Positions 31,652 through 54,993 of a stretch of 64,000 nt of DNA are shown here, in pieces (the first letter of the stretch is position 1; the number at the start of each line of letters is the position of its first letter). Origin of the DNA: an uncultured bacterium (GTDB lineage: Bacteria; Cyanobacteriota; Vampirovibrionia; Gastranaerophilales; Gastranaerophilaceae); assembly GCA_949296425.1 (NCBI GenBank), contig CASFPN010000031.1:1-64000 (forward strand), read 5' to 3'. A program made the translations under genes and the position numbers. The notes under the pieces were generated by a model that saw nothing but the letters and a program-made list of their open reading frames with translations, had not been told where the DNA came from and made no database searches.

Positions 31652-32496
31652 TTATTCCATAATATATAAAGGGGAGCATCCCCATCCAGAGCCTGTTTCA
31701 CAGTCCTCTTTATAATTATCACGTGTGATAAGGGTACAATAATTAGGACAGCTGCATCCGTTTGCACTATTGCCTGTGTCGTTTGTCCAGAAAACAGGTG
31801 CAAATTGATTGTCTTTTATAAAGAAATAAAATATATCTCTGCCAACAGTATTAGGTTTTTTATATCCGTTTACGTCTATAAAAACTTCATGTGTACAATT
31901 AAAATTTATCATTGCACCGTCGGGCAATAAAAATGTAAGAAGTCCATAGCCTTTTGTTCCGCCATTCAATCCTAATGGTTTTCCTGTTTTATCAAACCAT
32001 TCATTAGTGGCATGCCAGTGAATATCTTCATTTTTGGGAAAATTTGATGATGATAATGTATAATCGGCATTGTTTGATATTTCATTGCATTTTAATCCTG
32101 AGTCGACGGCTTTGAGTTGTTCGCCTATTTTGCAGACATAGTATATCATTTTTTCCCAGCCATACTCCTGAGGATTAATATTTTGGCCTTCTTTAACGGA
32201 AACCATTTGCAATGCCTGAGCAATAACCGAGTATTGTTTTTTGAACATTGCCTTGAATTGCCTGTCCTGAGTTTTAGTAATGACTGATGGCAGTGTCAAT
32301 GCCGCAACAACCCCGATAATTCCGAGGGTGATTAAGACTTCGGCAAGTGTAAATCCAAATTTACGGCATATAAAGTGATGTTTCATATCACAATTATGAT
32401 ATATTTTAAAACTCCTGTCAAGCAAACAGTCAAAAAAGTTAGTTCCTCCTACCTTTTCGGGGGGGGGGCAACTTTCAGCTTTTTATTCTCAACCAT
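31652..32496 (-). CDS. Type II/IV pseudopilin with poly-C tract; frame interrupted (phase-variable candidate)
   Basis: Prepilin-like protein with the core GFTLAEVLITLGIIGVVAALTLPSV, a G/F prepilin-peptidase site and Glu5, and a Cys-rich globular C terminus (NYKEDCETGSGWGCSP). A strong start, AAGGAG 8 bp before ATG at 32496, is separated from the core by a run of exactly ten C (minus strand) at 32459-32468. With ten C the reading stops after 15 codons; with eleven or eight C it runs unbroken into the pilin, giving about 281 residues with a long leader. An internal ATG at 32386 (11-residue leader) could still give some product. A paralogue at 52744-53501 has the same structure. The gene lies just downstream of dapB. 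Confidence 0.75.
32459..32468 (-). repeat. Poly-C/G tract, 10 nt, contingency-locus candidate
   Basis: Ten consecutive G on the plus strand (C in the coding strand), within the leader-coding part of the prepilin gene. Nothing like it occurs elsewhere in this AT-rich window except at 53465-53474 in the paralogous prepilin gene. Confidence 0.9.
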
Positions 32497-32530
32497 AGTT
32501 AAAACTCCTTTTTTATTTATTATTTACAAT

Positions 32531-45893: not shown

Positions 45894-45971
45894 GTCTTGC
45901 GCCTGTAGCAAATTTTTGACATATTGTACTTTAATAAATTGTGGGTAATTAACAAACGAAGGGAAAACAAT

Positions 45972-46991
45972 ATGCCGATAGATAAAGTAGGTTTTTCAGG
46001 ACTAGACCATACATTGTCGCTTTCTTCCTCCCAATCCAAAAGGGATAAAGTGCCGAATGAACTAACAGAATCCTCTGATAATGAAATTTCCAATGCTTCA
46101 AAATATATGATAGGTGCAGCCGCATTAGCCGGCGTAGTAGCACTTGGTATCATCGGTCATAAGAATAACTGGTGGCGTAAAGCCTCTCAAGCAGCAGAAG
46201 ATTTGAAACCGAAAATACCGCAAGAATCGCCAGAACCACAGAAACTTCTGGAATCTCATAAGGAACAAAAACTTCTGGGACCTCATGTAGAATCTCCTTG
46301 TGGCTCCGGCGGTAGCCGCGGTGTTGATGAAGTTGATAATATTAATAACCCGCAAGTTAATAATAACAATGCTTCTAAAGTTAAGTCAAAGAGTTCAGCT
46401 GCCGATTCCGGCAACCCAAAACCTTCCGAACAGGCACAGGCACCTGAAGCAGAAACAGGCAACCCAAAAACTGCCGAGCAGGCACCTGAAGCAGAAACAG
46501 GCAACCTAAAACCTTCCGAACAGGCACAGGCACCGGAAGCAGAAACAGGCACCCCAAAACCTTCCGAACAGGCACAGGCACCGGAAGTACAAACAGGCAA
46601 TCCACATAATGTAGATACGCAGGTTGATTATTCAGATATTAGTAAAATCGAAGGAGAGCGTTTTAAGTATCCAGATGGATCTGTTGCAATAACACAGACA
46701 GACAAATCAGGTAATGTAGTCAGAGAATTTTATTCACAGGATGGCACGACTGTAAGTTCTGTCACTGACTACAACCCTACAACGGGTATGCCAACAAAAC
46801 GTACCTCATATATTAATGATGACACGGTTGGTAATGTTAATGTCGCTGAGTACAATCCCCAAACAGGTGAGTTAGCAAAATGTACCTTCTATATGGATGA
46901 TGGCAGGATTATTATTTACCATTACGATTCAGAAGGCAGAGGCATTTTAGATAGGATTGAAAAGCGTGAGGCAAGTCTGTCCCATTTTTAA
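45972..46991 (+). CDS. Repeat-containing membrane-anchored hypothetical protein
   Basis: A 339-residue protein. Residues 1-12 carry a tag (KVGFSGL), a membrane helix follows at about 45-62 (YMIGAAALAGVVALGIIG), then a Ser/Asn/Pro-rich linker with four Pro-rich repeats of 14-16 residues (GNPKPSEQAQAPEAET type, about 147-208). The C-terminal part has TD.SGNVVREFYSQDG, YNPTTGMPTKRTSYI and YNPQTGELAKCTFY repeats resembling YD/RHS-like or MORN-like beta repeats. The arrangement suggests a stalk and an exported head, but no signal peptide is seen. The ATG at 45972 is chosen because GAAGGGAAAAC precedes it. The function is unknown. Confidence 0.7.
   Translation: MPIDKVGFSGLDHTLSLSSSQSKRDKVPNELTESSDNEISNASKYMIGAAALAGVVALGIIGHKNNWWRKASQAAEDLKPKIPQESPEPQKLLESHKEQKLLGPHVESPCGSGGSRGVDEVDNINNPQVNNNNASKVKSKSSAADSGNPKPSEQAQAPEAETGNPKTAEQAPEAETGNLKPSEQAQAPEAETGTPKPSEQAQAPEVQTGNPHNVDTQVDYSDISKIEGERFKYPDGSVAITQTDKSGNVVREFYSQDGTTVSSVTDYNPTTGMPTKRTSYINDDTVGNVNVAEYNPQTGELAKCTFYMDDGRIIIYHYDSEGRGILDRIEKREASLSHF
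46410..46595 (+). repeat. Coding tandem repeat, four units of 48/42/48/48 bp
   Basis: Units begin GGCAACCCAAAACCTTCCG or close variants. The second unit lacks six bases, in frame. Units encode G.PK..EQAQAPE..T and are nearly identical in DNA, a sign of recent duplication. Confidence 0.9.
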
Positions 46992-52743: not shown

Positions 52744-53501
52744 TTATTCCATAATATATAAAGGCGAGCAGCCCCAGCCGAAGCCTGTTTCACAGTCTTC
52801 TTTGTAATTATCTCTTGTAATTGCTGTGTGATAACCTGATGTACAGCCGTTTATATTATTTCCGCTTGTATAATCAAAGAAAACCGGAGAATAATTATTT
52901 TGGGTCAGTCCGAAATAAAATATGTCACGTCCGATAGTATTGGGTTTTTTATACCCGTTTACATCTATAAAAACTGTTTTCCAGCAGTTGAAGTTTATTA
53001 AAGCACCATCAGGCAAAAGAAACGTAAAATTTTTATAACCCGGATTGAGTCGCATTGGTTCTTTCTTTTTATTAAACCATTGATCATTTTTATGCCAGGT
53101 TATATCTTCATTAAATTTTGTATTCCCAGCCATTACGGCTGACATGTTTTCATCTGTACATATGACTCCTGCTTTTAAATACTTCAGTTCTTGACCAAGT
53201 TTACAAATAAAAGGCTGCATTACTTTGATATAAGTTGCTGTTGAAAATGAGCTGCCTAAATTTAAATTTTCCCCGTCTTTTGCGTATACCATCTGTAAAG
53301 CCTGTGCAATAGTTGAATATTGCTTTTTAAACATAGCTTTAAACTGTCTGTCCTGCGCATCATTAATTACTGCCGGCAAAGTTATAGCAGCAATACCCCC
53401 TATAATTCCAAGTGTAATTAAAACTTCAGCTAGTGTGAAACCACTTCTCGTACGCGAGTTTTTCGGGGGGGGGGCACTTCTAAAGCTTTATTGAATAACA
53501 T
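52744..53501 (-). CDS. Type II/IV pseudopilin with poly-C tract; frame interrupted (phase-variable candidate)
   Basis: A paralogue of the pilin at 31652-32496, with the same C-terminal blocks (NGYKKPNT.GRDIFYF, NYKEDCETG.GWGCSPLYIME). GGAGGT lies 6 bp before the ATG at 53501. Nine codons later comes a run of ten C (coding strand, 53465-53474). With ten C the frame ends after 23 codons. With eleven (or eight) C it gives a classical prepilin: a 21-residue leader ending RTRSG directly before FTLAEVLITLGIIGG, then 232 more residues. No alternative good start exists inside, so expression should depend on the tract. It lies just upstream of dxr and next to the hydrogenase gene. Confidence 0.8.
53465..53474 (-). 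repeat. Poly-C/G tract, 10 nt, contingency-locus candidate
   Basis: Ten consecutive G on the plus strand, in the leader-coding part of the pilin gene; same length and position as in the paralogue at 32459-32468. Confidence 0.9.
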
Positions 53502-53514
53502 TTTCAGACCTCCT

Positions 53515-54993
53515 TTATCCTTCTTTTACTTGCTCTTTTATTGATTTACTTTCATTAACGTAATTTGTAACCTGTTTTAAAGCCGGTTTGAAGGCGTTAA
53601 CGGTTGAATTTCCGCCTAAGCAGCCGCCTGTACAAGCCATAACTTCAATAAGGTTGCCGAGTTCACACATTCCGTTTTTCGCGTATTTTTTCAAATCTCT
53701 GACACTTTGTTTTGTAAGTCCGTCAATTATAACAGGATGTGCCGGGATTTCTTCAGGCAGCAGCGTTTGAACAGCTTTTGCAACTCCGCCCGTTACGCAA
53801 TAATTTCTGGCTTCTGCTGATGCTTCCGTTTTAAATTCGCTTTCAGAGCATTCTGCAACCTGAATTCCCAGTGCAACCATCCAGGCGCCGATTTCTTCGT
53901 AATTTAAAACGTAATCAACATTCGGATTTTGCAATGCTTCGCGTTTTTTAGCAACGCACGGGCTAAAAAATACGGTTACAGCATCGGGATTTTCACGCTT
54001 TACAATTTCTGCCGTGTAATAAAGCGGAGTTTTTGTATCTGAACGGAAAGGTTTCATATCCGGAATATGTTTGTCTACAAGTTCGTTGTATCCTGCACAG
54101 CAGGAAGTTGTCATAAATTCCGCACCTTTCATTAATCTTTCTTCAAACTCAGCAGCTTCTGTTTTTGTTGTAACATCAGCACCTTGAGCTACCTCGTAAA
54201 CATCTGCAAACCCTAGTTCCATAATAGCTTCTTTAAGCTGCTGCGGTTTGCACGGAAGCTGGCCGAACATTGCAGGAGCTACCATTGCGATTGTTTTTTT
54301 GCCGGTTTTTATATTTTTTAAAACATCAATAATCTGGCTTTTTTCATGAACGGCACCAAAAGGACAGGCTGATGCACATTTGCCGCAGGAAATACATTTG
54401 TCAAAATCTATTTTTGCATGACCGTTTTCATCTTTTGCAATTGCACCGACAGGACATGCACTTTCGCACGGAACAATAATTTTTTGTATAGCCTGATAAG
54501 GACAAACTTGAACACACATTCCGCAGTTCTTACATTTTTCCGGATCAATAACGGATTTACCGTTTTGAATTGAAATGGCACCGAATTTGCAGGTATTAAC
54601 ACACGGTCTTGCAACACAGCCCTGGCACAAATCTGTTACGTAAATTCTTGAAGGTACGCAGCCTTTGCAGGCGGTTGTAAGAACAGTCAGAGGGTGTTTG
54701 TCAGGGACTTCTCTTTTCTCGGCTTTGTTTGCCAGTTCTGACAATAAAACACTGTCATCAGTATCTTCAATGGAAAATCCCAGCCCTGCAATTGCTCTGT
54801 CCCTTAAAATAGCACGCTCTTTAAAAATACAGCATCTGTAATTGGGCACATCGCTGTTTTTAGGACGCATTGCAAAAGGAATGAGCCTTGTATTTTCTTC
54901 AAAATTATCACTTAAATATGATTTTATAAGCCGTACTAAAATCTCTCTTTTTAAATGTGATGTTTCTTTTGGAGTGCTGGTATTCATTGCCAT
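53515..54993 (-). CDS. [FeFe] hydrogenase, group B (ferredoxin-type)
   Basis: A 492-residue iron-only hydrogenase. The N terminus has the group B segment YRCCIFKERAILRDRAI and CQGCVARPC, then several [4Fe-4S] motifs (CKNCGMCVQVCPY, CISCGKCASACPF). The H-cluster motifs are TTSCCAGY, FFSPCVAKKREA and VMACTGGCLGG, with the four cluster Cys intact. The layout fits a monomeric cytoplasmic enzyme using ferredoxin for H2 production or uptake during fermentation. The maturase HydF is encoded at 62371-63543. It is transcribed toward the pilin gene. Confidence 0.9.
   Translation of the reverse strand: MAMNTSTPKETSHLKREILVRLIKSYLSDNFEENTRLIPFAMRPKNSDVPNYRCCIFKERAILRDRAIAGLGFSIEDTDDSVLLSELANKAEKREVPDKHPLTVLTTACKGCVPSRIYVTDLCQGCVARPCVNTCKFGAISIQNGKSVIDPEKCKNCGMCVQVCPYQAIQKIIVPCESACPVGAIAKDENGHAKIDFDKCISCGKCASACPFGAVHEKSQIIDVLKNIKTGKKTIAMVAPAMFGQLPCKPQQLKEAIMELGFADVYEVAQGADVTTKTEAAEFEERLMKGAEFMTTSCCAGYNELVDKHIPDMKPFRSDTKTPLYYTAEIVKRENPDAVTVFFSPCVAKKREALQNPNVDYVLNYEEIGAWMVALGIQVAECSESEFKTEASAEARNYCVTGGVAKAVQTLLPEEIPAHPVIIDGLTKQSVRDLKKYAKNGMCELGNLIEVMACTGGCLGGNSTVNAFKPALKQVTNYVNESKSIKEQVKEG

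Follow-up and report, generated by a model that had tools for sequence, protein, structure and literature searches.

The opa genes of Neisseria carry CTTCT repeats located in their leaders. Homopolymers occur in the pilC genes of Neisseria, whose tracts are given as G9-20 (PMC5953494). In Campylobacter, 53% of the tracts consist of nine G and 26% of ten G, with a peak at 9-10, and 5 to 81 genes are phase variable; interruption of the tract in homologues is a familiar sign of contingency genes, as seen for the phase-variable genes of that organism (PMC6321876).

The window analyzed here, i.e., the whole stretch of 64,000 nucleotides, harbors two pilin genes with a run of ten C close to the start codon (Table 1). 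Direct reading confirmed the organization of pilin gene 1 given in the preliminary description, namely, a strong start with GGAGGT six bases before the ATG, then the ten-C tract, which starts 27 bases past the A of the ATG, and a frame that ends after 23 codons (MLFNKALEVPPPRKTRVREVVSH followed by a stop codon). As had also been claimed, the tract sets the reading frame: with 11 C, the start is joined to a leader of 21 residues, MLFNKALEVPPPPKNSRTRSG, followed by FTLAEVLITLG, and removal of two C likewise restores the pilin frame. That no other good start exists held true as well, since there is no ATG, GTG, or TTG in the pilin frame between the tract and FTLAEV, the earliest start codon in that frame being a TTG at 53379, within the hydrophobic helix. 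The report of a single pilin locus was correct for that gene but overlooked a second one in the window (31652-32496, minus strand; ATG at 32496), so that pilin gene 1 is one case of a larger pattern. Pilin gene 2 is related to pilin gene 1 and has the same arrangement, with a tract that starts 28 bases past the A of its ATG. Both have the features used to define type IV pilin-like proteins, i.e., a leader, an F preceded by G or A, Glu at position 5, and a hydrophobic helix, through FTLAEVLITLGIIG. The match to the N_methyl family PF07963 is weak and under the cut-off for pilin gene 1 and over the cut-off for pilin gene 2 (E 4.9e-5). The 64-kb window contains six C8 matches, which correspond to the two ten-base tracts, versus 0.18 expected. 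Elsewhere in the window, a frame of 355 residues (45924-46991, plus strand) has tandem repeats like QAPEAETGNPKPSE.

Table 1. Positions of the tract-bearing pilin genes and of a neighboring gene in the window
Feature	Position	Strand	Remarks
Pilin gene 1, ribosome-binding site GGAGGT	53508-53513	-	Direct sequence reading; spacer to ATG of 6 bases
Pilin gene 1, leader start, from ATG (53501-53499) through tract end	53465-53501	-	Direct sequence reading
Pilin gene 1, ten-C tract, G-C10-G	53465-53474	-	One base out of frame
Pilin gene 1, post-tract pilin-like frame, KNSRTRSG then FTLAEVLITLGIIGG...	52744-53464	-	239 residues, open to stop
Iron-sulfur gene upstream of pilin gene 1, hydrogenase-like (function predicted from sequence)	53515-54993	-	Ends 13 bases before pilin start
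Pilin gene 2, ribosome-binding site AAGGAG	32505-32510	-	Direct sequence reading
Pilin gene 2, leader start, from ATG (32496-32494) through tract end	32459-32496	-	Direct sequence reading
Pilin gene 2, ten-C tract	32459-32468	-	Likewise one base out of frame
Pilin gene 2, post-tract pilin-like frame, long leader then FTLAEVLITLGIIGV...	31652-32458	-	PF07963

The genome to which the window belongs (2.0 Mb in 46 contigs, window included) yielded 284 C8 and 100 C10 matches, overlapping ones counted separately. By combining a pattern search with regional sequence, a procedure that may have missed a few, we recovered approximately 84 distinct tracts of at least 8 bases, among which 71 have ten bases, seven have eleven, four have twelve, one has nine, and one has eight. 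These numbers are well above chance, as approximately 0.1 C10 or G10 run is expected in 2 Mb under a simple independent-base model. Most tracts start approximately 25 to 33 bases past an ATG with a good ribosome site, and they read as C in the sense of some genes and as G in that of others. The majority are located in prepilin leaders, and for most, the frame that opens at 11 bases, not at ten, extends over 200 to 400 residues with a prepilin motif. There are 88 matches to a degenerate FTLAEV-like pattern in the genome. In approximately half of 20 pilins for which no nearby tract was seen, FTLAEVL immediately follows a short leader of the ordinary kind, such as MKKG or MKNA, and tract-bearing leaders thus represent a special class. 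Many of the latter (L009, L063, L155, L139, and similar ones) have 70 to 148 residues, far above the usual length, and contain repeat-like TPELGRSQEVKKSSYLNLVRYYVTKALRSIV... sequences that are open in the pilin frame. The near-identical paralogues L033, L061, and L067 have GGGAATG-C10, GGGAA-C10, and GGGAA-C11, respectively, with insertions or deletions at the tract edge as well as within the run. Viral contigs of IMG/VR contain one C10 pilin of the same type (L264); three such contigs also share a gene with a C10 run near its start that is in frame at ten (L261, L262, and L263).

A protein-level search of genome contigs found only two relatives. The orthologue of pilin gene 1 in a Candidatus Gastranaerophilales genome (L157) has ten C, the same upstream neighbor with the same junction between the iron-sulfur gene and the pilin gene, and likewise lacks one base; in L158, a more distant relative, the leader is plain (MKRAFTLAEVL). 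The comparison of pilin gene 1 with L157 gave a dN of 0.092 and a dS of 1.02, hence a dN/dS ratio of approximately 0.09, showing that the gene is under strong purifying selection despite its out-of-frame state in the assembly. The number of repeats shifts the frame of a protein conserved by its dN/dS ratio, as in contingency loci, and a conserved site is combined with a fixed one-base deficit, as in programmed frameshifting.

At the nucleotide level, the motif TG-C10-G[ACG]A is present in 28 of the 33 species of the genus; elsewhere in the family, 2 of 25 genomes searched have it. Related genomes, in which a search for pilins with a C tract had been proposed, thus do contain pilins with a C or G tract in that position. 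The five species of the genus without the motif are G002, G013, G024, G027, and G029. Counting one genome per species, TG-Cn-G[ACG]A occurs in the genus 4 times with n = 8, 21 times with n = 9, 522 times with n = 10, 36 times with n = 11, and twice with n = 12, i.e., 89% of the copies have exactly ten bases. The proposal that expression is switched by a variable tract therefore fares unevenly: loci of 9 and 11 bases with the same frame relation speak for it, and the predominance of ten speaks against it. A fixed length, named at the outset as the finding that would overturn the proposal, is nearly reached, although lengths of 8, 9, 11, and 12 occur. The G that flanks the tract is near invariant in both coding senses and is associated with the exact length: in G026 stretches, 68 of 69 tracts bordered by G at either end have exactly ten bases, and in the genome of the window, 64 of 71 G-flanked tracts do, versus 5 of 13 others (p 1.2e-4).

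We scored the frame relation of every tract found by choosing the start from the ribosome site and start codon, independently of the downstream frame. Robust pilin loci numbered 157, from many species, and in 149 of them the start joins the pilin frame only at 11 bases modulo 3 (11 or 8 bases; binomial p ~2e-60 against one third, a value that is indicative only because related copies are not independent). This rule is true in both senses and for each of the three possible phases of the start-to-tract distance. It is also true irrespective of the actual length, as it was observed at 11 of 11 robust loci with nine bases and at 24 of 25 with 11. The phase of the genes is thus constant while the length of the tract varies around ten, because 11 (modulo 3) is needed at assembled lengths of 9, 10, and 11 alike. 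Lengths 9 and 11 were purposely overrepresented in this sample, so that its in-frame share does not estimate that of the population; the share derived from the genus counts is 7%. The joined pilin frames are open across leaders of 17 to 148 residues, which, together with the dN and dS values of pilin gene 1, argues that the tract-bearing pilins are not dead genes.

The tracts also obey a rule relative to replication. All those of one contig are on the same strand regardless of gene direction, save for one tract that lacks the motif; for instance, 45 of 45 ten-base tracts are on the same strand of a 397-kb contig of G026. Two contigs, G026:C3 and G025:C2, show one strand flip each, near a peak in cumulative G minus C such as a terminus would produce, although the skew is weak. 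The C tract is on the C-rich strand, which we take to be the lagging strand, and a gene therefore reads C10 or G10 according to its own direction.

Not all tracts are in pilin genes. G026 has approximately fifteen outside pilins. Eight of these non-pilin tracts have ten bases and are located well within an open frame; seven of the eight are in frame at ten, including those in genes for a family 2 glycosyltransferase, a PMT_2 mannosyltransferase, a matrixin-like peptidase, and others. Surface functions are thus represented by the pilin-like proteins and by the two glycosyl- and mannosyltransferases; some tract-bearing non-pilin genes are not surface genes. The glycosyltransferase gene (L265 to L268; G026:C1:76066) has G10 in three species and an equal-length GGGAGGGGGG in a fourth, and both the uninterrupted and the interrupted stretches keep the same frame. 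Ten is therefore the true count in that gene, and a systematic undercount in the pilins is not credible.

Given the tracts, their number and polarity, the uniform frame deficit of the pilins, and the length variants at constant phase, we consider it an even bet that they are slipped-strand contingency loci with a modal length of ten, which would be OFF for pilins and ON for other genes. Each tract would act as a switch placed where a type IV pilin-like gene encodes its leader. At ten bases the pilin start codon is one base out of frame, which would make OFF the default state, and insertion of one base or deletion of two brings leader and pilin into a single frame, which would turn the gene ON in a reversible manner. 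Since a genome has dozens of these genes, any one cell would express a small set of pilins drawn at random. The non-pilin genes, whose tracts are in frame at ten, would in turn be ON by default and switch OFF. The direction of replication may affect the slippage or the stability of the tracts. Also in favor of switching are the tracts in glycosyltransferases, one of which is interrupted in a single species as in phase-variable genes of Campylobacter (PMC6321876), and the similar peak length of the Campylobacter tracts. However, known contingency loci vary in length far more than these tracts do, and neither an invariant flanking G nor strict replication polarity is needed for plain slippage. 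In addition, MutS is present in 32 of the 33 genomes of the genus, which speaks against such switching; loss of mismatch repair as the cause is thus unsupported.

Since the near-fixed length, the invariant flanking G, and the polarity are not explained by ordinary slippage, slippage at the RNA level is a serious rival, albeit one that we regard as unlikely. The DNA would be fixed at ten, and either RNA polymerase would add a base or ribosomes would slip back by one, such that all pilins would be made at a low level in every cell. This would agree with the near-invariant length of ten and the uniform one-base deficit of the pilins across 28 species, and with purifying selection on a pilin that is out of frame in both compared assemblies. 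Slippage is possible on C as well as on G runs, and the RNA-DNA hybrid in the polymerase is approximately ten bases long, which also counts in favor of recoding. However, the well-known sites of transcriptional slippage are A/T runs, and seven bases would suffice for ribosomal slippage. Recoding moreover does not predict a polarity relative to replication, slippage could only be harmful to the several non-pilin genes whose tract is in frame at ten, and the 11 robust nine-base loci with intact frames would be dead. We therefore favor contingency switching over programmed slippage. The uniform length may be accounted for in one of two ways: in keeping with switching, assemblies of mixed populations may report the modal length of a slippage equilibrium at ten, or ten may be fixed and the pilins made via RNA or ribosome slippage.

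Another possibility, which we find improbable, is that G-C10-G is a dedicated element recognized by a protein or by the replication machinery, e.g., for toggling the tract length or initiating recombination between pilin genes, with a secondary effect on the frame. The near-invariant flanking G, in both coding senses and tied to exactly ten bases, and the restriction, in pilin genes as in others, to a single strand of each replichore would fit such an element, but no recognizing protein was identified, and the location of most copies in prepilin leaders with one frame relation would be needless for a purely DNA-level site. More broadly, G-C10-G might be a fixed-length, replication-polar element rather than a freely slipping tract, either a dedicated site at which a strand-specific mechanism toggles the length between 10 and 11 or a programmed-slippage signal through which dozens of pilins are produced from out-of-frame DNA, a proposal that we make tentatively and hold at somewhat below even chances.

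That the tract-bearing pilins are decaying copies, or hosts of a spreading selfish repeat, is highly improbable. Most are out of frame as assembled, paralogues are many, and some leaders contain dispersed repeat sequence; however, each gene has a start and a ribosome site of its own, almost all have an open joined frame, dN/dS is approximately 0.09, and unrelated genes share only the tract and a few flanking bases. A mobile or dispersed repeat was rejected as a class, as the copies are mainly in prepilin leaders with one frame relation. Least probable of all is an artefact in which assemblies have dropped one base from a true tract of eleven, an alternative raised in the preliminary description: C/G homopolymers are error prone and eleven would bring nearly all pilins in frame, but 28 separately assembled species agree, lengths 9, 11, and 12 were also assembled, the interrupted glycosyltransferase stretch is equal in length, and several non-pilin tracts are in frame at ten, which argues against systematic miscounting.

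The literature on Gastranaerophilales, Vampirovibrionia, Melainabacteria, and Cyanobacteriota, searched largely outside subscription journals, contained no description of such tracts, in agreement with the earlier statement that none was known for the pilins of this lineage. The loci resemble an extensive set of surface switches that are off by default, and no account of such a system in the lineage was found. If switching is true, an uncultured gut lineage related to Cyanobacteria would have pilins with a common default OFF phase, and to our knowledge these would form one of the largest single-family phase-variable repertoires. If recoding is true instead, ten-base C/G runs would be a new, family-wide class of frameshift signal. 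In either case, automated annotation is expected to miss or truncate the tract-bearing pilins, and the replication-strand rule offers a direct means of studying how the direction of the fork bears on the stability of homopolymers.

The arrangement has points in common with several described systems. As in the opa family of Neisseria, in which random subsets are expressed, paralogous surface genes each have their own repeat, but opa repeats are pentamers in 7 to 21 copies (PMC5953494) in approximately 2 to 12 genes, whereas the tracts here are single-base, of fixed length, and in many more genes. Well-known cases of slippage mainly involve A/T runs in single genes, in contrast to the C/G runs in dozens of paralogues, plus genes in frame at ten, found here. 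Programmed transcriptional slippage, in Shigella mxiE and others, likewise combines a homopolymer, a one-base deficit in the DNA, and a needed protein (cited in PMC3711429). Similarly, in pilC1 and pilC2 of Neisseria a C/G homopolymer in a pilus-related frame decides on protein production (cited in PMC5953494); these are two genes for a pilus-associated protein, whereas here dozens of pilin-like genes have tracts with a length almost fixed at ten. The poly-G phasome of Campylobacter likewise comprises many in-gene tracts of approximately ten G/C in an AT-rich genome, in surface genes and glycosyltransferases, with ON lengths set by the frame and with interrupted homologues. Its tracts are oriented by gene, only 5% of those within genes reading as C (PMC6321876), whereas here they are oriented by replichore and, unlike in that phasome, the pilins have one common, putative OFF phase.
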